From Clostridia bacterium (lineage in GTDB: Bacteria > Bacillota > Clostridia > UBA1381 > UBA9506): 64,000 nt of DNA. Positions within the stretch are counted from its first letter, which is position 1; every line of letters starts with the position of its first letter. A program made the translations under genes and the position numbers. Below are positions 18,210 to 33,704 of this stretch, piece after piece. The stretch covers positions 1-64,000 of the forward strand of contig JAFQBK010000012.1 of NCBI GenBank assembly GCA_017399695.1, in the 5' to 3' direction. The notes under the pieces are model-generated. The model saw only the letters and a program-made list of their open reading frames with translations. It ran no database searches and was not told where the DNA came from.

Positions 18210-19373
18210 TTAGTCCATTCTTCTGCCCTGGCTCAAAAACGGCGGTACATCAATTGCATCCTGACCATTTTCTTTTGCAGCTTCACGCTGTGCGCCAAAG
18301 GCCGGGCGACCTGCGCCAAATGCCGGACGGCTTGCGCCAGCCTGAGCGGTGCCTCGGAAAATCGGATTGTTTGCAAACGGGTTGCCTAAACCATTAGCGG
18401 AGCCAATTGCACGCAACGGAGCATCCTCAAAACCCGTAGCAATAACAGTAATAACAATCTCATCGTTAAGAGTCTCATCAAGAGCTGCACCAAAGATGAT
18501 GTTTGCGTTCGGATCAGCAGCCTCGTTAACAAATTCAGCAGCATTGTTGATTTCAAACATACCAAGGTCAGAACCGCCGGTGATGTTAATGAGCACGCCG
18601 CGAGCACCTTCGATAGAGGTCTCGAGTAGCGGGCTCTGAATTGCCATACGAACAGCATCCTCTGCGCGGTTTTCTCCGCTTGCACGGCCAACACCCATAT
18701 GAGCAATACCGGTATCCTTCATAATAGCAACAACGTCAGCAAAGTCCAAGTTAATGTAACCCTGACCGGAAATCAAATTAGAAATACCCTGTACACCCTG
18801 ACGAAGAACATCGTCAGCCATCTTAAATGCGTCAACAAAGGTTGTATGCTGATTGGAAATCTGAAGCAGTCTGTCATTCGGAACAGTAATCAAAGAGTCA
18901 ACATGGCTCTTTAATTCTGCAATACCCTCTTCTGCACGAACCATTCTCTGACGGCCCTCAAAAGCAAACGGCTTGGTTACGATACCAACGGTCAAAATTC
19001 CCATTTCCTTTGCAATGCTTGCAACAACAGGAGCCGCACCGGTACCGGTACCGCCACCCATACCGCCGGTTACAAATACCATATCTGCACCGGACAGAGC
19101 CTGCGTAATTTCATCGCGACTTTCTTCTGCAGCTTTTGCGCCGATTTCCGGGTTCGCACCTGCACCCAAGCCCTTGGTCAGCTTGTCACCAATCTGAATC
19201 TTCTGCGAAGCCTGCGAAGACATCAGTGCCTGCTTGTCCGTGTTAACCGAAATAAAGTCTACACCCTTTAAGCCAAAATCAATCATGCGGTTTACCGCAT
19301 TGTTTCCGCCGCCACCTACACCTACTACTTTAATTTGTGCGACGTTTGCATTTTCAGTGTCAAATTCAAACAC
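18210..19373 (-). CDS. ftsZ: Cell division protein FtsZ
   Basis: FtsZ is the tubulin-like GTPase whose filaments form the division ring. The GTP-binding signature [14 protein letters not shown] lies near residue 105, with [11 protein letters not shown] at the N terminus. [13 protein letters not shown] and the C-terminal core are intact. A short linker rich in Ala, Gly and Phe leads to the conserved tip [11 protein letters not shown] that binds partner proteins. I choose the GTG at 19373 because GAGGAG lies 7 bases ahead of it; an ATG 30 bases upstream lacks a site. It has its own promoter and follows sbp. No ftsA is present nearby, and no spoIIGA-sigE-sigG follows. Confidence 0.97.
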
Positions 19374-19435
19374 CCTAACTCCTCCTCTTTCGTATATAAA
19401 CAAAATTTTAATATCGACTGAATTCTCCAGTTACC

Positions 19436-19465
19436 ATTATAACATATTACAATTAGGTTACACAA
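19436..19465 (-). promoter_or_regulatory. Promoter of ftsZ
   Basis: TTGTGT (19460-19465) and an extended -10 TGTTATAAT (TATAAT at 19436-19441) lie 18 bases apart on the minus strand. They are in the 174-base AT-rich gap between sbp and ftsZ, suggesting independent ftsZ dosage. Confidence 0.78.
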
Positions 19466-19547
19466 GTGTAAATTTTCAATTACATGAAATTTTTTTGCAA
19501 AATTCACATTTCTTTCACAAAAGATGGTATTTATTCCCATTTTATGG

Positions 19548-19895
19548 TTATTTTTTCAATTTTTCTCTCCATAAATCAATGTAGTAGCGTCTAATTATGG
19601 AAAAATTTGTAAAAAGTCGCGTACCAAAAACGATGAGCGCAACCAAATATAAATCCACATCCAGTTTTTTGCCAATAAAAGTAAGCAATGCGGCAAGGAT
19701 AGAATTTCCAATGAACCCCGACAGAAAAACCTGCATATTAAATGTCTTTTTGGATATGGAAGATAATCCTCCAAAAACGGAGTCAATAGACGCTAAAATA
19801 ATAATGGCAATATACGGGCTTGCCTGCATCGGCACATGCCACGGACCAATTAAGCCGACAAGAATGCCCACCAATATAAAAATCAACACAATCAT
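19548..19895 (-). CDS. sbp: Small basic protein Sbp (DUF1290)
   Basis: A 115-residue membrane protein with three or four hydrophobic segments and a basic C terminus (RRYYIDLWREKLKK). It matches the small basic protein family that sits just ahead of ftsA/ftsZ in Bacillus and Clostridia. The conserved ASIDSVFGGLSS stretch is present at about residues 36-47. Its biochemical role is unknown. The ATG overlaps the stop of the DUF881 gene by 4 bases (ATGA), so translation is probably coupled. Confidence 0.88.
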   Translation of the reverse strand: MIVLIFILVGILVGLIGPWHVPMQASPYIAIIILASIDSVFGGLSSISKKTFNMQVFLSGFIGNSILAALLTFIGKKLDVDLYLVALIVFGTRLFTNFSIIRRYYIDLWREKLKK

Positions 19896-20623
19896 TGCGC
19901 ACCCTCCTTCTCCGCTTCTACTGCCGTAGCGCTTCTAAAATTAAGGGTTCCGCTGTATTTTGGAATCAAAAGCTCCTCTGATTTTGCAATATCAATCTCA
20001 AAGCCCCACACGCGCAGTCCGTCAATCACACCGCCGTTTAGGTTGAGAGCCGCCTCTAATTGTTCCGGCTTTCCAATGGCGGAAATCTGATAGGGCGGAG
20101 CCATTTTTGTGTCATTTACGAGCACTGTCGGCCCTACACAACGCACTGCACTGGTACTGATAATACGAGAATCGTTAATTGCAATCGCCTCGGCACCCGC
20201 CGCAGAAAGCTCATTGATCACGCGGCGAAGGTCCTCATCGTGAATCAAAGTACTGTTGACCTCAATGCCGCTGCCATTCGTTCGGTTTTTCGCGTCATCT
20301 AAAGTAACAACCACACCCGGACCCTTGACATCCACGAGTCCTGCCAGGATTTCCGCGCGATTTAACTGTTCTTCCATAAACGCAAGGCCCGACTCACTGC
20401 GGTACTGCGCAATACTTGCCTCATATTCGGTAATCTGCGTTTTCAGTTTCTCATTTTCTTCCTGTTGCTTACCCAGCTCCGAAAGCAAATCCTCCATACG
20501 CTGATTGCTTTGATTTACCGCCGCATTGTTGATTGTCACGCTGCGGAACTGTATGGTAATTAAAAACGCCAGTATCATAAAAACGATACCCAAACTAATT
20601 TGCGCTTTATAATTCTTTTTCAA
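19892..20623 (-). CDS. DUF881 family protein (YlxW/YlxX-like)
   Basis: A membrane-anchored extracytoplasmic protein of about 243 residues. It has one transmembrane helix near the N terminus (QISLGIVFMILAFLITI), a coiled coil at about residues 35-85, then the conserved DUF881 domain with GPGVVVTLDDAK and EAIAINDSRI. The family sits between divIB and ftsZ in many Firmicutes and is thought to assist division, without a known activity. I prefer a TTG start at 20623 because GAGGTG lies 7 bases ahead; a GTG at 20638 overlaps that site. The alternative adds five residues. Confidence 0.85.
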   Translation of the reverse strand: MKKNYKAQISLGIVFMILAFLITIQFRSVTINNAAVNQSNQRMEDLLSELGKQQEENEKLKTQITEYEASIAQYRSESGLAFMEEQLNRAEILAGLVDVKGPGVVVTLDDAKNRTNGSGIEVNSTLIHDEDLRRVINELSAAGAEAIAINDSRIISTSAVRCVGPTVLVNDTKMAPPYQISAIGKPEQLEAALNLNGGVIDGLRVWGFEIDIAKSEELLIPKYSGTLNFRSATAVEAEKEGAQ

Positions 20624-20637
20624 CCAAAAGCACCTCA

Positions 20638-21510
20638 CTATTCCTGTGCATTTTCCTCTTCTTCTACTTCTGTATTTTCCTCGGTTGTTTCAGCGTTTTC
20701 CTTCTCTTCCCCTTGCTCGCCCGACGGTTCTTCTTCAGGCTGTATTTCCGGCTCCGGTTTCGGCTCCTCTTTTCCCGTAAACACCTTGGACGGATTGGTC
20801 AGGTCAATATAGGTTCCCTCCGAACGATCTACCTGCGGAAGAACGATATCCAGCATCTGCATTTTTCGTTCCATATCCTCAAACTTCGCAAAATTGACGC
20901 GGTAGCCGTCCTGATAAGTGACCCAGATATTCGTAATATCAGAAAAATCCATACTGCGGATTTGGGGAAGATGTTCTTTCTTTTTTAAATAGTCGATACA
21001 GTTTAGTATTATATCAAATTTTACGTCATCTTGTACAGTTATTTTTTCAGAAATTTTTTCCTCTGTAATATCTGCCCCATAAACGACGGGAAGACCCCAT
21101 CCGCTGTGGTCTGAAATCTCTTCTAAAACCTTTGCCTTGCCATCTGTTAAAAGATAACCCGTCATGTACGGAAACACGAGCTCGGCGCTGCATTCTGTCA
21201 CATGGATTTCGAGCGCAGAAGGAAGGTTTCTTTTGATTTCTATGGTGTCAAGATACGCCAGCGGTCGCAAGGTATCTGCTATTTTTCCTTGATTAATTTT
21301 GAAAATATTAGTGCCTTCCAAATAGGCAACCCGTTCATATATTTCTTCTGTAGAAACCATTGCGTTACCATGCATTGAAATATTGGTAATATTAAAAATG
21401 GGTGAAAACAGGCAAAAGCATAGAAGTCCTGTCGCCAGTAGTAAGCAAAGGACTGCTATGCCTCTTATTTTATTGAATTTGTATCTTTTTTTCTTTTGTG
21501 TTTTCGCCAT
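20638..21510 (-). CDS. divIB: Cell division protein DivIB/FtsQ
   Basis: A bitopic divisome protein that with FtsL and DivIC bridges the Z ring and septal wall synthesis. The 290-residue sequence has a basic cytoplasmic tail, one membrane helix (about residues 14-36), then the POTRA domain beginning FNITNISMHGNAMVSTEEIY. The FtsQ beta domain follows. The last 45 residues are very acidic (mostly Glu with Pro) and are likely disordered outside the membrane. It lies 23 bases after murA, a common order in Firmicutes. Confidence 0.9.
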   Translation of the reverse strand: MAKTQKKKRYKFNKIRGIAVLCLLLATGLLCFCLFSPIFNITNISMHGNAMVSTEEIYERVAYLEGTNIFKINQGKIADTLRPLAYLDTIEIKRNLPSALEIHVTECSAELVFPYMTGYLLTDGKAKVLEEISDHSGWGLPVVYGADITEEKISEKITVQDDVKFDIILNCIDYLKKKEHLPQIRSMDFSDITNIWVTYQDGYRVNFAKFEDMERKMQMLDIVLPQVDRSEGTYIDLTNPSKVFTGKEEPKPEPEIQPEEEPSGEQGEEKENAETTEENTEVEEEENAQE

Positions 21511-21533
21511 TTCCCTGCCTCCCCCAACTGAAG

Positions 21534-22793
21534 TCAGTATTCTACTCTCTTTATTTTCGCCCCTAATTGTTCAAACGCCTCCACGAGATGAGCATATCCT
21601 CTGTCGATATAACACGGGTTTTCAACCTCGGTGACGCCCTCGGCACAAAGTCCTGCAATCACGAGTGCCGCGCCGCCACGCAGGTCTTTTGCGCTTACGG
21701 TCGCGCCGGACAGTTTTTTGACACCCTGCACAATCGCAATCCGTCCATCGACAGTTATGTCAGCGCCCATACGCACCAGTTCTTCCGCCGGTTTAAATCG
21801 GCTTTCAAAAATTGTTTCCTTTATAATAGAGGTTCCGTCTGCCACCGCCAGCATCGCCAAAAACAAAGACTGTGCATCGGTGGGAAATCCCGGATACGGC
21901 ATCGTCGTAATTTCTCTTACCGCCTGGAGCCTTTCCGGAGCACAAAGCGAAACCCAATCTTCGCCCGAAGAAATTTCACAGCCACTTTCACGCAAAACGG
22001 AAAGCGTTGCCGATAAATGTTCGGGGACAACCTTTCGTATTTCCACTCTTCCGCCACTTGCTGCTGCACCACATAAATAGGTTGCCGCTACAATTCGGTC
22101 AGGCATCACGGTATATTCTGCCGCGTAAAGCTCTTTTACTCCATCAATCGTAATCTGCGAGCTTCCCGCGCCTGAAATCTTTGCACCCATACGGTTCAAA
22201 AAGTTTTGTAAATCTAAAATTTCCGGTTCTTTTGCCACGTTTTCAATCACCGTTCTTCCCTCGGTCAGGCAAGCGGCAAGCATAATATTTTCCGTTGCTC
22301 CCACGCTGGGGAAAGAAAGATGAATGTTTGCGCCACGCATCTGCGAGCCGTTACAAATGATATAGCCGTGACTTTCGCGGATGGACGCGCCCAATTCACG
22401 CAGTGCTTTTATATGCAAATCAATCGGCCTCGGACCCAGCTCACAGCCTCCCGGCGCTGATATCTTCGCCCGCTTGTTGCGCGCTAGGATTGCGCCCATA
22501 AACACAATGGATGAACGAAGCTCCCGCATCAGTTTTTCGGGGATATGATTTCCCAAATGGCCCCGGGTATCCACTATGAGTGTATCATCCTCGCGCGTGA
22601 CTTTTGCACCGAGATAGCGAAGCATCTCTACAGTGATGCTCACATCCTTTAATTTAGGACAATTATGTATGACATGAACACCCTCACTCAAAACTGTTGC
22701 CGCCAGGATTGGCAACACGGCATTTTTCGCGCCGTGCACATCCACTGCACCGGCAAGTGGTGTGCCTCCCTCTATCAGTATCCTGCTCATCAT
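21534..22793 (-). CDS. murA: UDP-N-acetylglucosamine 1-carboxyvinyltransferase MurA
   Basis: MurA transfers enolpyruvate from PEP to UDP-GlcNAc, the first committed step of peptidoglycan synthesis. The catalytic Cys is in APGGCELGPRP at residue 117, so the enzyme should be fosfomycin-sensitive in principle. HGAKNAVLPIL near residue 22 binds substrate. The protein has about 419 residues from the ATG at 22793; GGAGGTG lies 4 bases before it and a second ATG follows directly. An in-frame upstream ATG at 22889 is unlikely. It is part of the dcw cluster after murG. Confidence 0.96.
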   Translation of the reverse strand: MMSRILIEGGTPLAGAVDVHGAKNAVLPILAATVLSEGVHVIHNCPKLKDVSITVEMLRYLGAKVTREDDTLIVDTRGHLGNHIPEKLMRELRSSIVFMGAILARNKRAKISAPGGCELGPRPIDLHIKALRELGASIRESHGYIICNGSQMRGANIHLSFPSVGATENIMLAACLTEGRTVIENVAKEPEILDLQNFLNRMGAKISGAGSSQITIDGVKELYAAEYTVMPDRIVAATYLCGAAASGGRVEIRKVVPEHLSATLSVLRESGCEISSGEDWVSLCAPERLQAVREITTMPYPGFPTDAQSLFLAMLAVADGTSIIKETIFESRFKPAEELVRMGADITVDGRIAIVQGVKKLSGATVSAKDLRGGAALVIAGLCAEGVTEVENPCYIDRGYAHLVEAFEQLGAKIKRVEY

Positions 22794-22899
22794 ACTGCAC
22801 CTCCGGATATTGTCATTTACATCATCATACAATATCATTCTATGCAGTATGCTCTGTTTGGTTACTTTAGCCGAAAGAGAGCAATCCAAACTCTGATTT

Positions 22900-24021
22900 T
22901 CAGAGGCGGATTTCCGCTTTCGACTTAATCAGCTCGCACACACGCGCTGCAATACGCTTCGCTCCGTCTGTAATGCCGAGTTTCTTTGCGTTTTTGCTCA
23001 TTTCTTCTCTTTTTTGCTCGTCAGAAAGCAAACCATCGATTTCCTTTTTTAATTTTTCTGCACTGAGTTCTGATTCCGGAATCAAAACTGCTGCACCAGC
23101 AGAAGCTAAACTCTTCGCATTATAGGTCTGATGGTCATGTGCCACATTCGGCGACGGAATTAAAATGGACGGTCTGCCAAGAGCCGTAAGCTCACCAATG
23201 GTGAGTGCGCCTGCGCGGGCAATCACAACATCTGCCGCCGGCAGAACTTCTTCCATATTATAAATGTAGGGTTCAACACGGATCGAATCGGAAAGCTTTT
23301 CCTTGTCTACCTGCCCCATAAATTCATCATAATAACGCTTGCCCGTTGCCGCAAGAACCTGCACTTTGGACGCATCAACGGAATTGATATACTCTGCCAC
23401 TGCCTGATTGACTGCACGTGCACCCAGGCTTCCGCCGAGTGCGACTACAAAGGGGCGCAAATCAAGTTCTAAGCGCGCTCTTGCCTCTTCATAGCTAATA
23501 TCAAGCATATTCTCACGCAGAGGGTTACCTGTGAGGAAACATTTTTCTGCGACTTTTGGCTTAAAATATTTCGTTGTGTCTGAAAAACTGATAGCAATCG
23601 CATCTACGATAGATGCGGTCAGCTTCACGGTAAAGCCCGGAATAACATTTTGCTCGTGAATGAGCGTGGGAATTCCCAGCTTATGCGCTGCCACCATCAC
23701 CGGCGCGCAAACATAGCCACTGGTTCCGATAACAATATCAGGCCCGAATTTGCGGATAATTTTTTTTGCATCCGAAACAGCCTTTATAAAGTGATATAAC
23801 ACCTTCACATTTTTGAAAGTAAGTTTTCTGATTAAGCCCTCGACGACCACGGTTTCCATCGGATAACCTGCCTTGGGAACAAGCGTGCTTTCCATACCTG
23901 TCGGAGTGCCTACAAACAGAATTTCTGCATTATGGTATTTTTCGAGATGTCCGGCAATAGCGAGTGCCGGATTGATATGCCCTGCCGTACCGCCACCGGA
24001 AATGATTGCCTTCAATTCCAT
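22900..24021 (-). CDS. murG: UDP-GlcNAc:undecaprenyl-pyrophosphoryl-MurNAc-pentapeptide GlcNAc transferase MurG
   Basis: MurG adds GlcNAc to lipid I to form lipid II on the inner face of the membrane. The Gly-rich loop ISGGGTAGHINPALA at the N terminus and the second Gly loop ALGGSLGARAVN near residue 185 are typical. RAGALTIGELTALGRPSILIPSPN near residue 260 binds the UDP-sugar. About 373 residues from the ATG at 24021. A GTG at 24039 is an alternative but has no ribosome binding site. It follows ftsW closely in the dcw cluster. Confidence 0.95.
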   Translation of the reverse strand: MELKAIISGGGTAGHINPALAIAGHLEKYHNAEILFVGTPTGMESTLVPKAGYPMETVVVEGLIRKLTFKNVKVLYHFIKAVSDAKKIIRKFGPDIVIGTSGYVCAPVMVAAHKLGIPTLIHEQNVIPGFTVKLTASIVDAIAISFSDTTKYFKPKVAEKCFLTGNPLRENMLDISYEEARARLELDLRPFVVALGGSLGARAVNQAVAEYINSVDASKVQVLAATGKRYYDEFMGQVDKEKLSDSIRVEPYIYNMEEVLPAADVVIARAGALTIGELTALGRPSILIPSPNVAHDHQTYNAKSLASAGAAVLIPESELSAEKLKKEIDGLLSDEQKREEMSKNAKKLGITDGAKRIAARVCELIKSKAEIRL

Positions 24022-24042
24022 CGCCCCATTTCTCTTCACAGA

Positions 24043-25224
24043 TTATATCGATGCTTGCTTTTTATGTTTGGATACATTCATTACGATTCCCATCGCCGCC
24101 ATTAAAAATACCAGCGAAGAACCGCCCGCACTGAAAAACGGAAGCGGAATACCGGTGGTAGGAATGGACGAGGTTACAACCGCGATATTAAGAACTGTCT
24201 GGATACCAACCAACGCCACCACACCGATAACCAAAAGACTGCCGAAGCTGTCCGGCGCATCCATTGCGATTCGGATGCCGCGGTATATCATATACCCAAA
24301 GAGTGCCAAAATTGCCACCGCACCGATGAGTCCCATTTCTTCACAGATAATAGAAAAAATAAAGTCGTTCTGTGGCTCGGATACATACATAAATTTCTGT
24401 CTGGAATTACCGAAGCCCACGCCGAACAAGCCGCCGGAACCGATTGCATAAAGTGACTGGATGATCTGCCAGCCATCACCCAAACGATCCTTAAAAGGGT
24501 CGGTAAAGGTAATCAGTCGCTGCAGGCGGTAAGGCTCAAAGATTGCCATCCATACGCCAACCGGGATGACCGGCAGAGCCGCAATCGCAAAGTAGCGCAC
24601 GCGCGCACCTGCAACCAGCATCATAACAACCGAAGTCAGACCGATGATGATACAAACACTAAAATGCGGTTCGAGCAAAAGAAGCACAACAAAAAAGCCG
24701 AGCACTGCCCAATAACGCACCAAATAACGAAACTCTTTAATTTTTCCTTTGATGGTAGACATCGAATATGCGAAGTAGATAATTAATCCGATTTTTGCAA
24801 GCTCCGACGGCTGAAAGCTGATGCTTCCAAAGCCAAGCCAGCGTTTCGCGCCCTTATTCGATATGCCGGCAACCAAGACCGCCAAAAGCAGGAGCACGCA
24901 AACAACAAGAATCGGAACGGCATATTTTTTATACTTATGATAATCAAATTTAGCAGTAACAATCATCGCTCCAACGCCGATGACCGCCCATAAAAACTGT
25001 TTTTGGATAAAGTAAAAGCCGTTACCGAACTGATAATATGCCGAAGGATAGCTCGCGGAAAAGACCATAATGAGGCCCAGCACCAAAAGCAGCATCACGC
25101 TGACCAAAAAGCCGAAATCCACCGTACCCATATGGGCACCGGTTGCCTGGCATACAGAATCGCGTGATCGTTTTTTAGGAACCGTTTTATCGGGCGCTTT
25201 TCTTTGCTTCTCTGTATGTGTCAC
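24043..25224 (-). CDS. ftsW: Septal peptidoglycan glycosyltransferase FtsW (SEDS family)
   Basis: A polytopic SEDS protein, expected to polymerise lipid II at the septum with its partner class B PBP encoded upstream. After a basic N-terminal region of about 35 residues come roughly ten membrane helices. SEDS landmarks include MVFSASYPSA, the KRWLGFGSISFQPSELAKI region and the C-terminal GIPLPFFSAGGSS. It has 393 residues and a GTG start with AGAGGTGA ahead. In many Firmicutes murD lies between mraY and this gene; here only 30 bases separate mraY and ftsW. Confidence 0.94.
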   Translation of the reverse strand: MTHTEKQRKAPDKTVPKKRSRDSVCQATGAHMGTVDFGFLVSVMLLLVLGLIMVFSASYPSAYYQFGNGFYFIQKQFLWAVIGVGAMIVTAKFDYHKYKKYAVPILVVCVLLLLAVLVAGISNKGAKRWLGFGSISFQPSELAKIGLIIYFAYSMSTIKGKIKEFRYLVRYWAVLGFFVVLLLLEPHFSVCIIIGLTSVVMMLVAGARVRYFAIAALPVIPVGVWMAIFEPYRLQRLITFTDPFKDRLGDGWQIIQSLYAIGSGGLFGVGFGNSRQKFMYVSEPQNDFIFSIICEEMGLIGAVAILALFGYMIYRGIRIAMDAPDSFGSLLVIGVVALVGIQTVLNIAVVTSSIPTTGIPLPFFSAGGSSLVFLMAAMGIVMNVSKHKKQASI

Positions 25225-25253
25225 GGTCTTTCACCTCTACCTTTCCTCTAAAA

Positions 25254-26231
25254 TTACGAAAGTACACCACTAATTCCGGCATACGCCAGAATGCAAAGAA
25301 CAAGGGTTACACCTGAAAATAACAGTACAATCTTAACCTCGTTCATGCCGCACATTTCAAAATGATGATGAATCGGACTCATCTTAAAGATTCGTTTCCC
25401 CGTCAGCTTAAAGGATGCCACCTGCAGAATCACCGACAAGGTTTCCATCAGGTACACAAAGCCGATAATGATTAAAATCAGCGGCAGACGAAGCGCAATC
25501 GCTGCGATCGCCGTAGCTCCACCCAAAAACAAGGAGCCGGTATCGCCCATAAACACCTTTGCCGGATGTGCGTTAAATACCAAAAATGCAAGGCAGCTTG
25601 CGCTGACTGAACCGATAAAAACAGCAACCGCGATTTCGTTCATATAAAATGCAACAACAGTTAAAAACAGAGACACAATCAAGGTCACCGTTGCTGCAAG
25701 ACCGTCTAAACCGTCGGTAAGATTCACGCTGTTTGTCATTGCAAGCAAGACAAAAATTACAAAAGGAATGATGAAAAGTCCGATGTCAACACTAAAGTCC
25801 AAGAACGGAATAATAATTTCTCCGCCCAAATAACCCATATAACTGAGCAAAACGGTAATTACGACACTGACTAAAATTTGTGCGGAAAACTTTTGTTTTG
25901 CAGATAATCCAAGATTGCGTTTCATCACAACCTTGATAAAATCATCAACAAAACCAATCACGCCAAATAAAACCGCACAGGCAAGCAGAATTAAAATTTC
26001 ATAATTCTGCATTTCGGGAAAATAGCCAAACCAAAGCGTTGCCACCACGACGGAAATAATCATCGTAATACCGCCCATCGTCGGTGTGCCGCTTTTTTTC
26101 TGATGCCAGCTCGGCCCCTCCTCACGAATACTCTGACCGAATTTTAAGCGTCTTAAAAACGGAATCAGAATCGGCGTAAGCACGAGGCAGATAAGCGCTG
26201 AAAGCGAAACGCTACTTAAAATCATTTCCAT
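25254..26231 (-). CDS. mraY: Phospho-N-acetylmuramoyl-pentapeptide transferase MraY
   Basis: MraY joins phospho-MurNAc-pentapeptide to undecaprenyl phosphate, giving lipid I. About 325 residues with ten membrane helices. Characteristic motifs are GFVDDFIKV (Mg-binding Asp pair), NLTDGLDGLA and FMGDTGSLFLGG, then the cytoplasmic MSPIHHHFE loop near residue 285. I choose the ATG at 26231, with AAGGAG 11 bases upstream; a GTG at 26243 abuts that site and an ATG at 26225 is also possible. It follows murF by about 40 bases. Confidence 0.95.
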   Translation of the reverse strand: MEMILSSVSLSALICLVLTPILIPFLRRLKFGQSIREEGPSWHQKKSGTPTMGGITMIISVVVATLWFGYFPEMQNYEILILLACAVLFGVIGFVDDFIKVVMKRNLGLSAKQKFSAQILVSVVITVLLSYMGYLGGEIIIPFLDFSVDIGLFIIPFVIFVLLAMTNSVNLTDGLDGLAATVTLIVSLFLTVVAFYMNEIAVAVFIGSVSASCLAFLVFNAHPAKVFMGDTGSLFLGGATAIAAIALRLPLILIIIGFVYLMETLSVILQVASFKLTGKRIFKMSPIHHHFEMCGMNEVKIVLLFSGVTLVLCILAYAGISGVLS

Positions 26232-26271
26232 CTTCTTTCCCACTCCTTATCCAGAATATCGTATCATAAAA

Positions 26272-27642
26272 TTAGCATTCTTTTTGCAAAAACTCTGTCA
26301 CTCGTTCAAGCTCCATCACGCGCGATGCTTTTACCAGCACATGGCAATCCGGAACAATGCTTTCTCTTAATGCCTCATATATTTCTGAAACATCTTCTGC
26401 GCTTTTGACCTGCTCGGGCATAAGTCCTAAGGAAAGTGCAGCAAGCGCAATTTCTTTTGCTTCTTTACCAATGGTAAAGAGCATATCTACGCCCTCGCTT
26501 GCTACCGTCTCTCCCACAAGTTTATGCGCTGTTTTCGAAAACTCGCCCATACACGCCATATCACCGAGCACCGCAATCTTTTTGCCCTTGGTTTTGCCAA
26601 GTACAGAAAGCGCGGCGTTCATCGAATCCGGCGCGGCATTGTAGCAGTCATTGATAATTGTATAGCCGTTATGACGGATGTAATCCATTCGCATTTTGGT
26701 CGCTTTGAGTTCTTTGAGTGCGAGAAGAATTTCTTTTTCAGGAACTCCCAGCACAAAGCCTGTCGCAATCGCAAAAAGTGCATTATAGACATTGTGCTCG
26801 CCCGGCCGATTAACTCTTACACGAAAATCTCTACCAAAACCTGAAAAATCAAAGTTAATACCTTCTTCATCCGAAGTGATATTTTTTGCAACAACGTCGC
26901 AGGCTTCGCTCTTACCCACAGTAATCACCCGATACGGGATTTCGTCTTTATGGTTTTTTAAGATGGGGTCGTCGCCGTTTAGAACGACCGTGCCTCCGGG
27001 TTTTATATGGGCAAACATCTCTGACTTTGCGCGGTAGATATTTTCCTGCGAGCCCAACAGTTCGATGTGGGACATACCAATATTGGTCACAATGCCAATT
27101 TCAGGTTTGGCAATCGCCGCCAAGCGGTCAATTTCGCCAAAGCCACTCATACCCATTTCCAACACTGCTGCCTCGATTCCTTCCTCCATACGAAATACCG
27201 TTAGTGGCAAACCAATCTCATTATTAAAATTTCCCTCTGTTTTAAGAGTTTTGAATTTTCTCTCTAAAACCGCCGCAGTCATTTCCTTGGTAGAGGTTTT
27301 GCCGACACTGCCTGTGATTCCTACCATATGAACCGGGAACAAATCACGGTAATAAGAAGCGAGGCTCTGCATTGCGCGCAGAGTATCCTCTACTAAAATT
27401 ACACAGACATCTCTAGAAAGAGTCACTGTTTTCTCGGTCAGAACTGCCTTTGCACCGCTTTTTGCCGCCATCTCCAAAAAATCGTGACCGTCAAATTTTT
27501 CTCCTTTGATTGGGATAAACAAGGAACCGCCTGGCACATTTCGGCTATCTGTCGTAATTTGTACGATGGAAGCCTCAGCATTTCCCGAAAGCAGCTTGCC
27601 TCCGGTTGCCTGCACGATTTCTAAAACACGAAGCGTCTTCAT
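26272..27642 (-). CDS. murF: UDP-N-acetylmuramoyl-tripeptide--D-alanyl-D-alanine ligase MurF
   Basis: MurF adds D-Ala-D-Ala to the UDP-MurNAc-tripeptide. The 456-residue protein has a small N-terminal substrate domain, the central ATPase with P-loop GITGSVGKTSTKE near residue 110, and a C-terminal domain containing NDCYNAAPDSMNAAL near residue 335. The stop is 40 bases ahead of mraY, and murE lies 7 bases before its start. Both ligases are translated from the same message. Confidence 0.95.
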   Translation of the reverse strand: MKTLRVLEIVQATGGKLLSGNAEASIVQITTDSRNVPGGSLFIPIKGEKFDGHDFLEMAAKSGAKAVLTEKTVTLSRDVCVILVEDTLRAMQSLASYYRDLFPVHMVGITGSVGKTSTKEMTAAVLERKFKTLKTEGNFNNEIGLPLTVFRMEEGIEAAVLEMGMSGFGEIDRLAAIAKPEIGIVTNIGMSHIELLGSQENIYRAKSEMFAHIKPGGTVVLNGDDPILKNHKDEIPYRVITVGKSEACDVVAKNITSDEEGINFDFSGFGRDFRVRVNRPGEHNVYNALFAIATGFVLGVPEKEILLALKELKATKMRMDYIRHNGYTIINDCYNAAPDSMNAALSVLGKTKGKKIAVLGDMACMGEFSKTAHKLVGETVASEGVDMLFTIGKEAKEIALAALSLGLMPEQVKSAEDVSEIYEALRESIVPDCHVLVKASRVMELERVTEFLQKEC

Positions 27643-27649
27643 TCTTCCC

Positions 27650-29092
27650 TCACCCCTCCAGGAGTTCTTTTATAATTACTCTTTCATCAAAATCCTTTTT
27701 TTCTTTTCCTATAATTTGATAGGTCTCGTGACCCTTCCCCGCCAAAATAATACAGTCGCCCTCTTTGCCAATTTCCAGCGCATAGCCGATTGCATCGCGG
27801 CGGTTTTCTATTAAAATGTACTCGCAATCCGTACGCTTCATTCCCTCTTCAATCTCATAGATAATAGACATCGGTTCTTCGGTGCGCGGATTATCGGATG
27901 TGATGATGCAGAAATCGGAAAGATTCCCTGCAATTTCTCCCATTATCGGGCGCTTGGTTCTGTCGCGGTCACCTCCGCAACCAAACACGGTAATCACTCT
28001 GCCTTTGGCAAATTCTTTCACTGTACGGATAATGTTATCCAATCCGTCGGGGGTGTGCGCATAATCAATAATCACCGTATAATCCGTATTGGTATAGACA
28101 GTTTCGGCTCTGCCACGGACCCCCTGCGCTACTGTCAGCGCAGTAAAGACATCCTCCGGCGAAAATCCTAACTGAATAGCGCAGACCGCCGCCGCCATTG
28201 CATTGTAAACAGAGAATTTACCCGGAATACCCAAGCGAACAGCGTAGGACTTATCTTCGTGCTTAAAATCGAATAAAATGCCTCGCGCGGAAATTCTTAC
28301 GTTCTCCGCCTGCCACTCGGCTTTCTCGTCAATCGAGTAGCTCGTCATCGGGCAAGCCGCATCATCTACGATTTTTTTGCCTGCCGCATCATCAATATTT
28401 ACAATCGCCGTTTCACACATCAGAAACAGCATTTTCTTGGCCTCTAAATACTTCTCCATCGTTTCGTGGAAGTCCAGATGGTCCTGCGTCAAGTTTGTAA
28501 ATACGCCGCAGGCAAACGGGATTCCGTACACACGGGAAAGGACAAGCGAGTGGGAGGAAACCTCCATCACGACGTATTCTACCCCGCGGTCACGCATGGC
28601 ACGGAACAATTCGTGCAGTTCATACGATTCCGGCGTCGTGCGTTCGGACTCTAAAAGCTCATCGCCAATCATATTACCGTTGGTACCGATGAGTCCTACT
28701 TTTTTACCGCTGAATTCTAAAATCTGTTTGATGAGCGAGGTTACGGTTGTTTTGCCGTTGGTTCCCGTAACACCGATAATTTTCATTTCTTTTGCCGGGT
28801 GCAAAAACCATGTGGCACTCATTTGCGCAAGCGCCTTTCTGCTATCAGGGACACGGATTTTCACCGCACCCTCGAATGAAACATCGTCTTCTACCACAAC
28901 TGCTTTTGCACCGCGATGGATGGCGTCTTCGATATAGCGATGTCCGTCCGCCTGAAATCCTTTGATACACACAAACATACAGCCCTCGGTGGCTTTTTGT
29001 GAATTATAGCAAATCGCAGAGACAGACAAATCCTCTTTTTCCCATTCAGCCTCTACTCCGCAAAGCAACTGTGATAATAGCATTGTTTTCAC
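27650..29092 (-). CDS. murE: UDP-N-acetylmuramoyl-tripeptide synthetase MurE, meso-DAP type
   Basis: MurE adds the third amino acid to UDP-MurNAc-L-Ala-D-Glu. The P-loop is GVTGTNGKTTVTSL near residue 110. The specificity motif reads DNPRTEEP near residue 400; DNPR is the form associated with meso-diaminopimelate, while lysine-adding enzymes differ at this Arg. I therefore infer a DAP-type peptidoglycan. The 480 residues include the N-terminal UDP-binding domain and the C-terminal domain with AGKGHETYQ. The gene starts 5 bases after the PBP gene. Confidence 0.95.
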   Translation of the reverse strand: MKTMLLSQLLCGVEAEWEKEDLSVSAICYNSQKATEGCMFVCIKGFQADGHRYIEDAIHRGAKAVVVEDDVSFEGAVKIRVPDSRKALAQMSATWFLHPAKEMKIIGVTGTNGKTTVTSLIKQILEFSGKKVGLIGTNGNMIGDELLESERTTPESYELHELFRAMRDRGVEYVVMEVSSHSLVLSRVYGIPFACGVFTNLTQDHLDFHETMEKYLEAKKMLFLMCETAIVNIDDAAGKKIVDDAACPMTSYSIDEKAEWQAENVRISARGILFDFKHEDKSYAVRLGIPGKFSVYNAMAAAVCAIQLGFSPEDVFTALTVAQGVRGRAETVYTNTDYTVIIDYAHTPDGLDNIIRTVKEFAKGRVITVFGCGGDRDRTKRPIMGEIAGNLSDFCIITSDNPRTEEPMSIIYEIEEGMKRTDCEYILIENRRDAIGYALEIGKEGDCIILAGKGHETYQIIGKEKKDFDERVIIKELLEG

Positions 29093-29097
29093 CCTTT

Positions 29098-31296
29098 CTA
29101 GTCGACATCTAAGAAGCGGAACTCAACTCTTACGATGCTTCCTGCCTCCAGTACTGTTCCCGGTGCGGGGTCCTGTCTGATGGCAATCGTGCGCTGCGAG
29201 GTGCTTCCTGTAGCGCCTGCACTGCTGACATTTAAGTTCAGCTTATTTGCCGAAAGGCTCGCCTGGACCTCATTCAAGGACAAATTCAGCACATTGGGAA
29301 CGGTTACTTTATTGTCCGTATTATCTTCTGTATACAAGATGACCGTAGAGTTTGCCGTCATATTCGAACCGGCTTTCGGCATCTGGTCTTTCACGGTTTC
29401 GCCGCCGCCGACAATTGTGTAGGTTAGATTCTGCGCTCTGACATCTTTAATCGCCGCCTGCGTGCTCTTTCCTCTGACATCCGGAACGTAAACGTCCAGA
29501 TTTTCTTTTTCTTCTTCGGTGTACTGCGGTTCAATTTTCATATAATTTAGAACATCATCCATAATTTTACCAACTACCGGTGCCGCAATACGTCCGCCGT
29601 AGTATTCGCCGTTGGATGCTTCATCCAGCATAACCAGACAAACAACCTTCGGGTCATCCGCCGGTGCAAAGCCGATAAACGAAGAAACATATTTGCCGTT
29701 TCCACGCGGAATTTTCTCCGAGGTTCCGGTCTTGCCTGCTAAGCGGAAGCCTTTGATATAAGCATTCTGTCCCGAACCGTTGGTGACTACATTTTCTAAA
29801 AGCGAGCACATCAGCTCGGAGGTTTCACTTGAGATGACCTGTCTGACAACCGTCGGCTCATAACTCTTTAAGACGTTGCCGTCATCGTCTACCAGTTCTT
29901 TGACCAGATACGGCTTTAACAGTTCTCCACCATTTGCCACAGCACCCACTGCCGCGATCATCTGAAGCGGCGTTACTTTCGGGCCCTGACCGAATGCGGA
30001 GGTAGAAAGCTCCATCAAACCGAAATTTGAATCGCCATAGAATACGCCGTTTGCCTCACCGGGCAAATCGAAACCTGTGGTTTCCGTAAAGCCAAACGCA
30101 CGATAATATTTCTTAAACAGGTCCGGTCCTACCATTTGGCCGACCTCGATAAATACAGGGTTGCAAGAGTTCTTAACGCCGTCTTTAAAGCTCTGTGCAC
30201 CATGACCGTTTCGGTTTGCGCAGGCAATCTTTCGTCCGGCAACCTCTTTATAACCGGGACAGAAGAACGGTGTGGTGACCGAAACAATTCCCTCTTCGAG
30301 CGCCATCGATGCTGTAAAAATCTTAAAGCAGGAACCCGGCTCATAGGAATCTACAACTGCTTTATTTCTCCACATTTTCTGAAGCGCGTTGGAACGCTCC
30401 TTATTTCGTTCTTCCTCATTGGTAATCGCATCAATTCTCGCCTTTTCCTCTTCATCCACCAGTTCAAACGGGTGATTTAAGTCAAAGTCAGGTTTTACCG
30501 TCATCGCAAGAATTTCGCCGGTTTCCACGTCCATTACAATTGCCGCCGCACCCTGCTGAACCTTTTCTTCACGGAATACGGTTTCTAAATGCTTTTCTGC
30601 AAAGTGCTGGATGACCTCGTCAATCGTCAACACGACATTGGTTCCGTTCTGCGGGTCGATATGCGTTTCCTCCTGAAACGGCATATCGGTATCCAGTGCA
30701 TTTTTCAGCGCTATAACTCTGCCCGGCACGCCACGAAGTGCCTCATCGTATACCATTTCGATACCACCGAGACCGGTGTTGTCTGTGCCGGTAAAGCCGA
30801 TGACATGGGACGCAAAGTTTCCGTAGGGGTAATAACGCTTCGAATCCTCCTGCAGATATACACCGACCAAATCAAGCTCGCGCACACGGGTCGCAACCTC
30901 GACGTCAATCTTACGCTTGATGGTGACGTGGTTGGTCTGTTTATCCAAAAGCTTCTGAATCTCTGCCGCATCCATTTCCAACACGACGCTGAGTTCAGCC
31001 GCAATTTTTGCTGCATCTTTTTTGGCTTTTCGTATCTCATTCGGGTTCGCAGTAACCGTCTCAACAGACGAGCTCTGTGCTAATACCTTGCGGTTTCGGT
31101 CAAAAATCGTACCGCGCTTTGAGGTAACGATATTGTCTCGCGTCTGTTGCTCGATTGCCTCCCGCTGAAGCTTCGGTCCGTCAATGACTTGCAAAAAGAC
31201 CAAGCGCACGCCCAAAGCGCCGAGGCAAAAGGCAAACACAACGAACATTACGAGCATTCGGATTTGTAGTTTTCGCTTCGGTTTTTCCATCGTCAT
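29098..31296 (-). CDS. ftsI: Division-type penicillin-binding protein (class B) with two PASTA domains
   Basis: A septal transpeptidase of about 732 residues. A single N-terminal membrane helix (about residues 14-35) is followed by the PBP dimerisation domain. In the transpeptidase domain the active-site motif is SxxK in EPGSCFKIFTA, with KTGTSEK near residue 545. Two PASTA repeats end the protein (VYVPDVRGKS and VTVPNVLNLS), as in Bacillus SpoVD and pneumococcal PBP2x. I choose the ATG at 31296 because GAGGAG lies 6 bases ahead; an ATG at 31314 covers the ribosome site. A long hairpin lies in the leader (31334-31374). Only one such PBP is present, so a sporulation-specific copy is not seen here. 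Confidence 0.93.
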   Translation of the reverse strand: MTMEKPKRKLQIRMLVMFVVFAFCLGALGVRLVFLQVIDGPKLQREAIEQQTRDNIVTSKRGTIFDRNRKVLAQSSSVETVTANPNEIRKAKKDAAKIAAELSVVLEMDAAEIQKLLDKQTNHVTIKRKIDVEVATRVRELDLVGVYLQEDSKRYYPYGNFASHVIGFTGTDNTGLGGIEMVYDEALRGVPGRVIALKNALDTDMPFQEETHIDPQNGTNVVLTIDEVIQHFAEKHLETVFREEKVQQGAAAIVMDVETGEILAMTVKPDFDLNHPFELVDEEEKARIDAITNEEERNKERSNALQKMWRNKAVVDSYEPGSCFKIFTASMALEEGIVSVTTPFFCPGYKEVAGRKIACANRNGHGAQSFKDGVKNSCNPVFIEVGQMVGPDLFKKYYRAFGFTETTGFDLPGEANGVFYGDSNFGLMELSTSAFGQGPKVTPLQMIAAVGAVANGGELLKPYLVKELVDDDGNVLKSYEPTVVRQVISSETSELMCSLLENVVTNGSGQNAYIKGFRLAGKTGTSEKIPRGNGKYVSSFIGFAPADDPKVVCLVMLDEASNGEYYGGRIAAPVVGKIMDDVLNYMKIEPQYTEEEKENLDVYVPDVRGKSTQAAIKDVRAQNLTYTIVGGGETVKDQMPKAGSNMTANSTVILYTEDNTDNKVTVPNVLNLSLNEVQASLSANKLNLNVSSAGATGSTSQRTIAIRQDPAPGTVLEAGSIVRVEFRFLDVD

Positions 31297-31302
31297 CGCA
31301 AA

Positions 31303-31397
31303 CTCCTCATTCATATAATATTTCTTCTAAACCAAAGTTAGTGCGGAAGAGTTATCCTCCCCCACACTAACTTTACAGGCGTCTCCTCATTCATATA
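31303..31397 (-). repeat. 15-bp direct repeat flanking a strong hairpin in the ftsL-PBP gap
   Basis: The 15-mer CTCCTCATTCATATA occurs at 31303-31317 and again, exactly, at 31383-31397. Between the copies a perfect 10-bp inverted repeat (AAAGTTAGTG 31334-31343, CACTAACTTT 31365-31374) encloses further G-rich/CTCTTCC pairing, giving about 17 bp of stem. On the minus strand the upstream repeat copy opens a possible 18-codon reading frame (31394 to 31338) that ends inside the hairpin. Confidence 0.7.
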
Positions 31398-31424
31398 TAG
31401 TGCCCGTTTCGATCAAATATTCCT

Positions 31425-31919
31425 TTACTCCACTTCCCCATGTACGGTTTTTTCCACATGGTCAACCTGTGGCAAGGTGACATATACTGTCTGGTATTTT
31501 TCCGGTCTGCGCATCCCCAGTTTTTCTGTTGCAACACTTTCCACATTCTTTAAATCCAGCGCTTCTTCAATTTCCATTTCCATTCGTTTATTGGTAGCAA
31601 CCAGATTACTTAATTCCTTTTGGCTTTTCTCGATCCGGTTGGTCGTTTCCGTAATCATAACACCACGGCACAAAACGAAAAACGCAGCCATTGCAACCAG
31701 CAAAATTGCTCCCAGCACCGACAACTTGGCGCGGACATTTGCTCTACGCTGTGCCGCTGTTTGTCGGCTGACCTTCTTTTTCGGCGCAGGTGCGGCTTTG
31801 ATGCGCACATTCGGGGCATAACTCGGTAATTCCGTTTTTCTGACAGCGCTGCCATCATAATAGTTTCTGCCGTAATAGCCTTGCTCGTAATAAAACGACG
31901 CACTCTCTGCTCTGGCCAC
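31425..31919 (-). CDS. ftsL: FtsL-like cell division protein
   Basis: A bitopic protein of about 164 residues. The first 75 residues are cytoplasmic, rich in Tyr at the start (FYYEQGYYGRNYYDG) and very basic later. One membrane helix follows (LSVLGAILLVAMAAFFVLC), then an extracytoplasmic coiled coil (RIEKSQKELSNLVATNKRMEMEIEEAL). This layout and its position between rsmH and the septal PBP identify FtsL. The start is taken as the GTG at 31919, with AAGGAG 8 bases ahead; the longer frame from 31970 has no ribosome site. The long Tyr-rich cytoplasmic tail exceeds that of Bacillus FtsL. Confidence 0.85.
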   Translation of the reverse strand: MARAESASFYYEQGYYGRNYYDGSAVRKTELPSYAPNVRIKAAPAPKKKVSRQTAAQRRANVRAKLSVLGAILLVAMAAFFVLCRGVMITETTNRIEKSQKELSNLVATNKRMEMEIEEALDLKNVESVATEKLGMRRPEKYQTVYVTLPQVDHVEKTVHGEVE

Positions 31920-31975
31920 CTGCTTCACTCCTTTTCGTTTTTGTTTAAGCCGAGGGGAATCAAACCCCATAAGCC

Positions 31976-32923
31976 TTAAACTTGATAAATTTTCACCTTT
32001 TCAAACACCCGCAGCTTTGCACTGCGCGCACGTGGATTGTCCAAAAGTTCGGCCTCGCCTGCCACGATAGGCTTGCGATTGACCGGGCGTCCCTGCGGCT
32101 TTTTGCCGCAGACACACACCGGGAACTCTTTGGGGCAGGTACAACCTGCCGCGATGTCAGCAAACGCCGTCTTCACAATTCGGTCTTCGAGGGAGTGGAA
32201 GGTGATGATCGCTAAACGACCGCCGGGTGTCAAGCAGTCTACGAAGTCAGAAATGGCTTGTCTTAGGATAGTTAGCTCCCCATTGACCTCAATGCGAATA
32301 GCTTGAAACGTGCGTTTCGCCGGATGCGGACCGTCTTTTCGCGCCCCCTTTGGTACTGCTTTTTTAATGATTTCGACCAGCTGCAGTGTCGTTTTGATTT
32401 CCCCCGCCTGCCGCTCTTTTACAATAAATTCAGCAATACGCCGCGCCCAACGGTCCTCTCCATATTGGAAGATGATTTCTTCTAACTGTTTTTCGCTATA
32501 ACTGTTTACAACATCGTATGCGCTGAAGCTGTTTCTTCGGTCCATGCGCATATCAAGCGGCGCATCCGCCTGATAGGAAAATCCGCGCTCGCCCTCATCC
32601 AGCTGATGAGAGGATACGCCCAAATCCATCAGCGCACCATCGATTCTATCAATCCCAAGCTCCGAAAGAGCGGATTTTACATTCTTAAAATTCTGATTGA
32701 CATAAGTCACTTTGTCGCCAAACCCGGCTAATCTTTTTTGGCTGGCAGAAATTGCCGCTGCGTCCTGATCAAAGCCAATCAGTCTGCCTTCTGTCAGGCG
32801 GCTTACAATTTCGAAGCTGTGCCCTGCACCGCCCATCGTCGCATCGACATAAACGCCGTTTGGACGAATGGCAAGCATTTCGATGGTTTCGTCCCGAAGC
32901 ACAGGAACATGATGAAACTCCAT
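31976..32923 (-). CDS. rsmH: 16S rRNA (cytosine1402-N4)-methyltransferase RsmH
   Basis: RsmH (formerly MraW) methylates C1402 of 16S rRNA in the decoding centre. The SAM-binding motif [10 protein letters not shown] lies near residue 30 and [12 protein letters not shown] near residue 100. The conserved C-terminal [12 protein letters not shown] is near residue 245. A CxC...CxC cluster ([13 protein letters not shown]) follows. About 315 residues from the ATG at 32923; GGAAGGTGG precedes it. Second gene of the dcw cluster, 21 bases after mraZ. Confidence 0.96.
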
Positions 32924-32944
32924 CCGGCATCCACCTTCCAATTT

Positions 32945-33373
32945 TTACAGTAAGCCTTCCAGTTTCTCTGAAAGTACATCCGGGCTAAAGTGGTCAAAGC
33001 TGTAATCGTCATCCCACTTCTTCGAATCCCAGATTTCCAAGCGAGTGGATGCACCGACGACGGTAACTTCCTTTTCTAACCCAGCATAACTGCGAAGCTT
33101 TGCCGGAATCATAATTCTTCCTTGCTTATCAGTCTCGCACTCACATGCACCGGCAAAGAAAAAGCGAACAAATTGTCTGGCATCCTTGTTGGAAAGCGGA
33201 AGTGAATCAAGCTTATTCTTAAGCTTTTCAAATTCATCCAAGGGAAAGGCAAACAAACAGTTGTCAAGACCCAATGTTACAATGACAGTATCGCCAAGCT
33301 CCTCGCGGAACTTCGACGGCATAAACATTCTGCCCTTATTATCAAGCGAATGTTGATATTCTCCCATTAACAT
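32945..33373 (-). CDS. mraZ: Transcriptional regulator MraZ
   Basis: MraZ is a ring-forming DNA-binding protein that represses the dcw cluster. It has about 142 residues with two SpoVT/AbrB-like halves, MLMGEYQHSLDNKGRMFMP at the start and CETDKQGRIMIPAKLRSYA in the second half. The start at 33373 is chosen because homologues begin M-x-MGEYQH and AGGTGGTGAGG lies just ahead; an upstream in-frame ATG at 33436 would run through the operator boxes. Four GTGGTG boxes upstream (33380-33436) are probable autoregulatory sites. Confidence 0.96.
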   Translation of the reverse strand: MLMGEYQHSLDNKGRMFMPSKFREELGDTVIVTLGLDNCLFAFPLDEFEKLKNKLDSLPLSNKDARQFVRFFFAGACECETDKQGRIMIPAKLRSYAGLEKEVTVVGASTRLEIWDSKKWDDDYSFDHFSPDVLSEKLEGLL

Positions 33374-33379
33374 TGGCCT

Positions 33380-33436
33380 CACCACCTTTCCTGGCTTTTC
33401 ACCACTTTTATGGGCTACTCCACCACAATTCACCAC
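33380..33436 (-). promoter_or_regulatory. Four helically phased GTGGTG boxes, probable MraZ operator
   Basis: GTGGTG occurs on the minus strand at 33431-33436, 33421-33426, 33400-33405 and 33380-33385. Three of the four are preceded by AAA or AAAG. The steps are 10, 21 and 20 bases, so all boxes face the same side of the helix. MraZ of Mollicutes and E. coli binds repeated GTGG/TGGG-type boxes. These lie between the promoter and the gene, and the last one overlaps its ribosome binding site. Confidence 0.85.
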
Positions 33437-33445
33437 TTTTATTTT

Positions 33446-33474
33446 ATTGTACTCTATTTTACTGCTTTTTGCAA
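33446..33474 (-). promoter_or_regulatory. Promoter of the dcw cluster (PmraZ)
   Basis: TTGCAA (33469-33474) and TACAAT (33446-33451) are 17 bases apart on the minus strand. The predicted start lies at the first GTGGTG box. The gene-free stretch 33374-33752 otherwise holds two terminator hairpins, a 7-bp inverted repeat CTATATC/GATATAG at 33509-33533, and an isolated fifth GTGGTG at 33681-33686. Confidence 0.85.
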
Positions 33475-33564
33475 CAGTTTTTCGAAAAAAAATTTATTTT
33501 TTTTGCATCTATATCCCCGTATACAAGATATAGTATTTTTTATTTTTCTTAGCACAATAATTAG

Positions 33565-33615
33565 AAAAAGCGATGCTTTTCCGCTTGCCTTTTTCTTGGA
33601 AAAACATCGCTTTTT
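33565..33615. terminator. Terminator-like hairpin upstream of PmraZ
   Basis: AAAAAGCGATG pairs with CATCGCTTTTT over 11 bp, with additional CTTTTCC/GGAAAAA pairing inside. Runs of T follow on both strands. It insulates the dcw promoter from the upstream operon. Confidence 0.75.
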
Positions 33616-33704
33616 TAAATGATTTTTATCTTTTTTCTTTCATACCCAATGGATTTATAAAATTATCTTTTCAAAAAATTCACCACTTTACTTTTCGGGC
33701 ACAG

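Follow-up and report, generated by a model that had tools for sequence, protein, structure and literature searches.

The window analyzed here, the whole 64,000-nt stretch, carries on its minus strand a 14-gene dcw cluster headed by mraZ. We take the gene order to be mraZ rsmH ftsL pbp murE murF mraY ftsW murG murA ftsQ DUF881 sbp ftsZ, all names except that of mraZ being our own assignments from the sequences. The mraZ product scores 155 bits against TIGR00242, above the cut-off of 98, and resembles the solved MraZ structures 1n0e, 9qlr, 9qlg and 9sx6. Upstream of mraZ lies a predicted promoter (PmraZ) that is kept across the family, with a conserved A/T-tract (UP-like) block on its 5' side. 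Since this promoter ends at 33446, transcription would start near 33439, which would place the first of a series of GTGGTG boxes at about +3. The features at the locus are as follows:

18210-33373, minus strand: 14-gene dcw cluster, mraZ to ftsZ, from the listed open reading frames
32945-33373, minus strand: mraZ, dcw transcriptional regulator, 142 aa (TIGR00242), ATG at 33373
33380-33385, minus strand: box 4, best read as the Shine-Dalgarno sequence of mraZ (AAGGTGGTGA); at most a weak extra MraZ box
33400-33405, minus strand: putative MraZ box 3, 21 bp after box 2 and 31 bp from box 1, in 4/4 congeners
33421-33426, minus strand: putative MraZ box 2, 10 bp after box 1
33431-33436, minus strand: putative MraZ box 1, AAAGTGGTGAATT, at about +3 of the predicted start, in 4/4 congeners
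33446-33474, minus strand: predicted PmraZ, with -35 TTGCAA at 33469-33474, 17 bp, and -10 TACAAT at 33446-33451
33521-33536, minus strand: NrdR-type box B, ATACTATATCTTGTAT, 14.8 bits, the top score of the window (next, 8.7)
33552-33567, minus strand: degenerate NrdR-type box A, TTTCTAATTATTGTGC (10/16), 31 bp from box B
33560-33607, minus strand: terminator-like hairpin, AAAAAGCGATG...CATCGCTTTTT, between the fifth box and the NrdR-type boxes
33681-33686, minus strand: fifth, MraZ-type box, AAAGTGGTGAATTTT, 250 bp from box 1

A sequence search bore out the four minus-strand GTGGTG boxes of the preliminary description at 33431-33436, 33421-33426, 33400-33405 and 33380-33385, with steps of 10, 21 and 20 bp, on the same strand and just 3' of the promoter. 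Single boxes are not rare, the window containing 28 GTGGTG against 16.7 expected; four within 60 bp on one strand occurred in 0/300 shuffled 64-kb windows. To place the array in context we compared 152 mraZ upstream regions from the genus, the family, the order and a wider set. GTGG occurs in them 394 times in the sense orientation and 62 times in antisense, and sense pairs peak at spacings of 10 bp (118), 20 (71), 21 (27), 31 (39) and 41 (29). Such sharp peaks would be expected of a protein ring that reads one box per helical turn, and this register of 10/20-21/31/41 bp in the examined mraZ arrays agrees with the helical phasing that had been claimed for the boxes of the window.

Boxes 1-3, at offsets 0, 10 and 31, fit the general register and leave its +20/21 place vacant. 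Alignment of related mraZ upstream regions, which the preliminary description had proposed, shows these three boxes conserved in relatives: each of the four congeners has them, in steps of 10 and 21 bp. This supports the suggestion that MraZ has an operator at the dcw promoter. None of the four congeners has a box in the register between boxes 2 and 3. The canonical 3 x 10 bp design has no such gap; L004/L087, a relative that is not a congener, carries the customary three boxes in 10-bp steps. Throughout the order the same design recurs as [A/T/G]TGG boxes. Genome-wide, two-box pairs of the form GTGG-N6-GTGG show no enrichment (15 occurrences, compared with 31 of the reversed pattern), and specificity must therefore come from the array as a whole.

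The window therefore holds at least two same-strand GTG(G) boxes in a register of ~10 bp, at or just 3' of a genuine mraZ/dcw promoter with a predicted start site, and conserved at the same place in congeners, family and order. We conclude that the boxes are very probably the autoregulatory operator of MraZ. Because they follow the register found across the 152 regions, the array is, as judged from sequence, an ordinary MraZ operator of an already known kind, with one register vacant. An MraZ ring would bind boxes 1-3 from one side of the helix and leave the +20 register unoccupied; bound MraZ would block initiation or promoter escape, and rising MraZ would shut down the 14-gene dcw cluster. 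That the effect here would be repression and not activation is taken from other species. The boxes indicate that MraZ autoregulation, through a register that a ring can read, holds in uncultured gut Clostridia, and the array indicates that the box register tolerates a vacancy.

The same G-rich boxes might instead act as a G-quadruplex in DNA or RNA, and a parallel quadruplex has been reported downstream of PmraZ in S. aureus (PMC11796246). We regard this as highly improbable here: the array holds GG runs only, its G4Hunter score is low (mean 0.36, maximum 0.68 over 25 nt), and the one-strand spacing of 10/20/31 bp fits a ring protein but is not required by a quadruplex. An Rfam search near the site returned nothing at gathering score. 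An RNA switch in the 5' leader was also considered, but folding was only somewhat better than that of shuffles (z -1.9), and we make no such claim.

Box 4 differs from the other three. The sequence AAGGTGGTGA stands shortly 5' of the mraZ ATG at 33373 and has complementarity to the 16S tail 5-10 nt ahead of the start codon, as judged against the general anti-Shine-Dalgarno sequence and not the species' own 16S. Within the family the ribosome-site box always lies between -11 and -13 relative to the start codon, and it stays there while arrays shift away to as far as 143 bp upstream of that codon. The 18 mraZ ribosome sites of the family read GGCGGTG (7), GGTGGTG (6), GGAGG (3) and two other forms. 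Relatives have GCGG in place of its GTGG, and its distance to the start codon holds while the array shifts; the best reading of box 4 is therefore the Shine-Dalgarno sequence of mraZ, and we do not count it as an operator box. Were it a genuine fourth MraZ box, MraZ would also occlude the region of the ribosome site. In favor of such a role, the short-leader lineages g1, g3, g4 and g5 have their ribosome sites in phase with the array (50-51, 31, 32 and 62 bp), and GGYGGTG serves as the mraZ ribosome site in 13/18 family members as compared with 3/135 other genes. We nevertheless consider this role quite unlikely, since GCGG, the commonest form of the ribosome site, was not seen as a box in any array, the phase is scattered in long leaders (78-130 bp), and three family members use GGAGG. 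Box 4 had earlier been proposed as a regulatory box, a proposal that finds no support, given GCGG in 7/18 family members and its failure to follow the array in longer leaders. Translational control through it, also suggested, is unsupported, as the box sits where a Shine-Dalgarno sequence must be; MraZ binds DNA, and we know of no precedent for translational control by it. The GGYGGTG form, rare elsewhere but found at mraZ (for example at 33380-33386 in the window), is perhaps a deliberately weak ribosome site.

The lone fifth box lies at 33681-33686, where it had been described, but it starts 250 bp from box 1 and not about 245. The 1.69-Mb assembly contains exactly two copies of the 12-mer AAGTGGTGAATT, one at box 1 and one at this lone upstream box. 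The 13 bases AGTGGTGAATTTT are identical in the window and in two congeners (L083 and L084), amid otherwise diverged, poorly alignable sequence; in these congeners they stand 241 bp before box 1, with an extra GTGGTG 10 bp further upstream. Overall, the fifth box is kept in two of three congeners. We consider it likely to be a genuine auxiliary site for MraZ. Less probable, though by no means negligible, is that the hexamer arose by chance or belongs to an unrelated element such as one of the upstream transcript: the box is missing from the third congener (L082), no promoter was recognized beside it, and the hexamer by itself is common, as the count for the window shows. Against this stand the exact 12-mer, found only twice in the genome and both times before mraZ, and the 13 bases identical in three species, with a second box 10 bp upstream in two of them. 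As an auxiliary site, the fifth box could be bridged to the array by the same MraZ ring; DNA looping through it is conjecture. The terminator-like hairpin on its mraZ side overlaps the edge of box A, and L083 and L084 also have a hairpin there, of different sequence.

The NrdR box consensus is reportedly acaCwAtATaTwGtgt, as given by Rodionov and Gelfand. In 18/18 family members a site like ACACwAyATCTTGTAT, which matches this box, lies ~60 bp before the -35 element of mraZ. In most of them its distance to the first MraZ box is close to 100 bp; in the window, box B is 85 bp upstream of box 1. We scored these regions with a weight matrix trained on 69 sites from nrdD loci only. Within 400 bp of mraZ it found sites in 18/18 genomes of the family and 39/52 of the sister family, counts that come from related species and are thus non-independent, while the controls gave 0/51 for segments 400-700 bp upstream and 8/350 for shuffles. 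The 16-bp box B matches the nrd boxes of its own lineage. In the window's own genome the same motif precedes nrdG and nrdD (gene names partly from sequences), and NrdR is encoded there (G000:C12:77509, 216.6 bits).

The arrangement around box B is less complete. A half-site TTGTGN lies 30-32 bp from box B in all four congeners, and the partner box at this distance is a mere half-site in most members of the family; in the window, box A scores low with the nrdD-trained model, its half-site being 31 bp from box B. No promoter was recognized beside the NrdR-type box in the window's family, and box B, ~80-95 bp upstream of the predicted start, does not overlap the promoter or start site. Furthermore, in genus g3 an NrdR gene was not found in three genomes, all incomplete, and the nrdD genes lack boxes, yet box B before mraZ persists, including in G003 and G004. 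With a half-site as partner, no adjoining promoter and a box in g3 without NrdR, NrdR control of mraZ in the window itself is probable at best. At the G003 and G004 loci (L096, L097), box B is kept together with a tail RTTACA, and another factor may bind there. As a regulon motif this tail was rejected: the genome search gave 23 matches, roughly half of them at mraZ, and the reversed control gave 22.

The sister family (f3) presents a fuller picture. Of 40 boxes, 39 from this family and one from another genome of the order, 35 lie directly 3' of a sigma-70-like promoter, as against 65/1120 at random. The promoter consensus is TTTGTGaTAtAAT, followed by the NrdR-type box; a second box is often present at 31-33 bp, and some genomes have well-formed pairs. 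This arrangement reads as a distal dcw promoter that would be repressed by NrdR at its start site. The boxes lie at 33521-33567 in the window and at loci L083-L098 and L219-L278, covering the whole family and most of the sister family. Outside the order, box pairs precede mraZ in Lachnospiraceae (L040, L041 and L043, 31-32 bp) and in Oscillospiraceae (L072 and L073, 41-42 bp). NrdR-like matches in L028, L030, L066 and L070 were set aside, as they fall within terminator hairpins of upstream genes.

Two further observations were made in passing. Many other exact NrdR-like matches in the family are located within genes or ahead of plsX, rpoB, S-layer or sigma genes; in two congeners each, the motif stands 25 bp before plsX (G005:C42 and G007:C12) and ~118 bp before rpoB (G005:C222 and G006:C41), the gene names being taken from the sequences. 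Separately, LexA-like boxes of the GAACATATGTTC type sit ~180-240 bp upstream of mraZ in Oscillospiraceae (L055, L057, L059, L066 and L070). Such boxes occur in 8/77 regions of the wide set, those of L028, L030 and L037 being doubtful, and in 1/345 other segments, and SOS control of dcw in Oscillospiraceae is possible.

NrdR is a dATP/ATP sensor. We lean slightly toward dual control of dcw in this order of gut Clostridia, in which the proximal promoter would be controlled by MraZ and a conserved operator further upstream would be the target of NrdR. For the sister family, this operator would coincide with the start site of a second, distal promoter; in the window's family, the NrdR site is partly degenerate and may, in the genus without NrdR, be bound by another factor. 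If true, the cell would adjust division and wall synthesis to the state of its DNA-precursor pool. This would be a direct transcriptional link from dNTP sensing to cell division, and the matching of division to DNA synthesis would become testable at one promoter. The NrdR-type site is a more interesting lead than the box array. Described targets of NrdR are RNR genes, with topA added (PMC4409342), and its operator needs two boxes with a spacer of 14-17 or 24-27 bp (PMC12051234). No link between NrdR and either mraZ or the division and cell wall cluster emerged from the literature searched.

Eraso (2014), White (2022) and Fisunov (2016) are said to have described the MraZ sites of E. coli, B. 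subtilis and Mollicutes. Like the window, these have GTG-core direct repeats near the mraZ promoter and, as is proposed here, autoregulation, but the sequence and number of their boxes are unlike those of the window, and an extra site 250 bp upstream is not known to be described for them. For Mollicutes, the direct repeats are reported as AAAGTG[T/G] (PMC8475190). In Burkholderia cenocepacia, the DNA fragment bound by MraZ contains four 7-nt repeats, separated by 3 nt, that lie 3' of the -10 element and over the transcription start site (PMC7761207). By this precedent, both this kind of array and an array that begins at the start site are already known. Both operators have four same-strand repeats 3' of the -10 element, over the start site (a predicted one in the window) and before mraZ. 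The Burkholderia repeats are regular (7 nt + 3 nt), whereas the window has two boxes at 10 bp, a vacancy and a third at +31, and its fourth box coincides with the ribosome site.

NrdR boxes have likewise been described (PMC9110341, PMC12051234). The boxes reported here share with the NrdR operators of RNR promoters (PMC9110341, PMC12051234) the 16-bp acaCwAtATaTwGtgt-like sequence and the occurrence of pairs ~31 bp apart, but they stand before mraZ and not before an nrd operon. In the window, in contrast to the nrd operators, the pair stands 5' of the recognized promoter and one of its members, the second box, is degenerate. In the sister family, as in nrd operators, one box lies directly 3' of the promoter -10.
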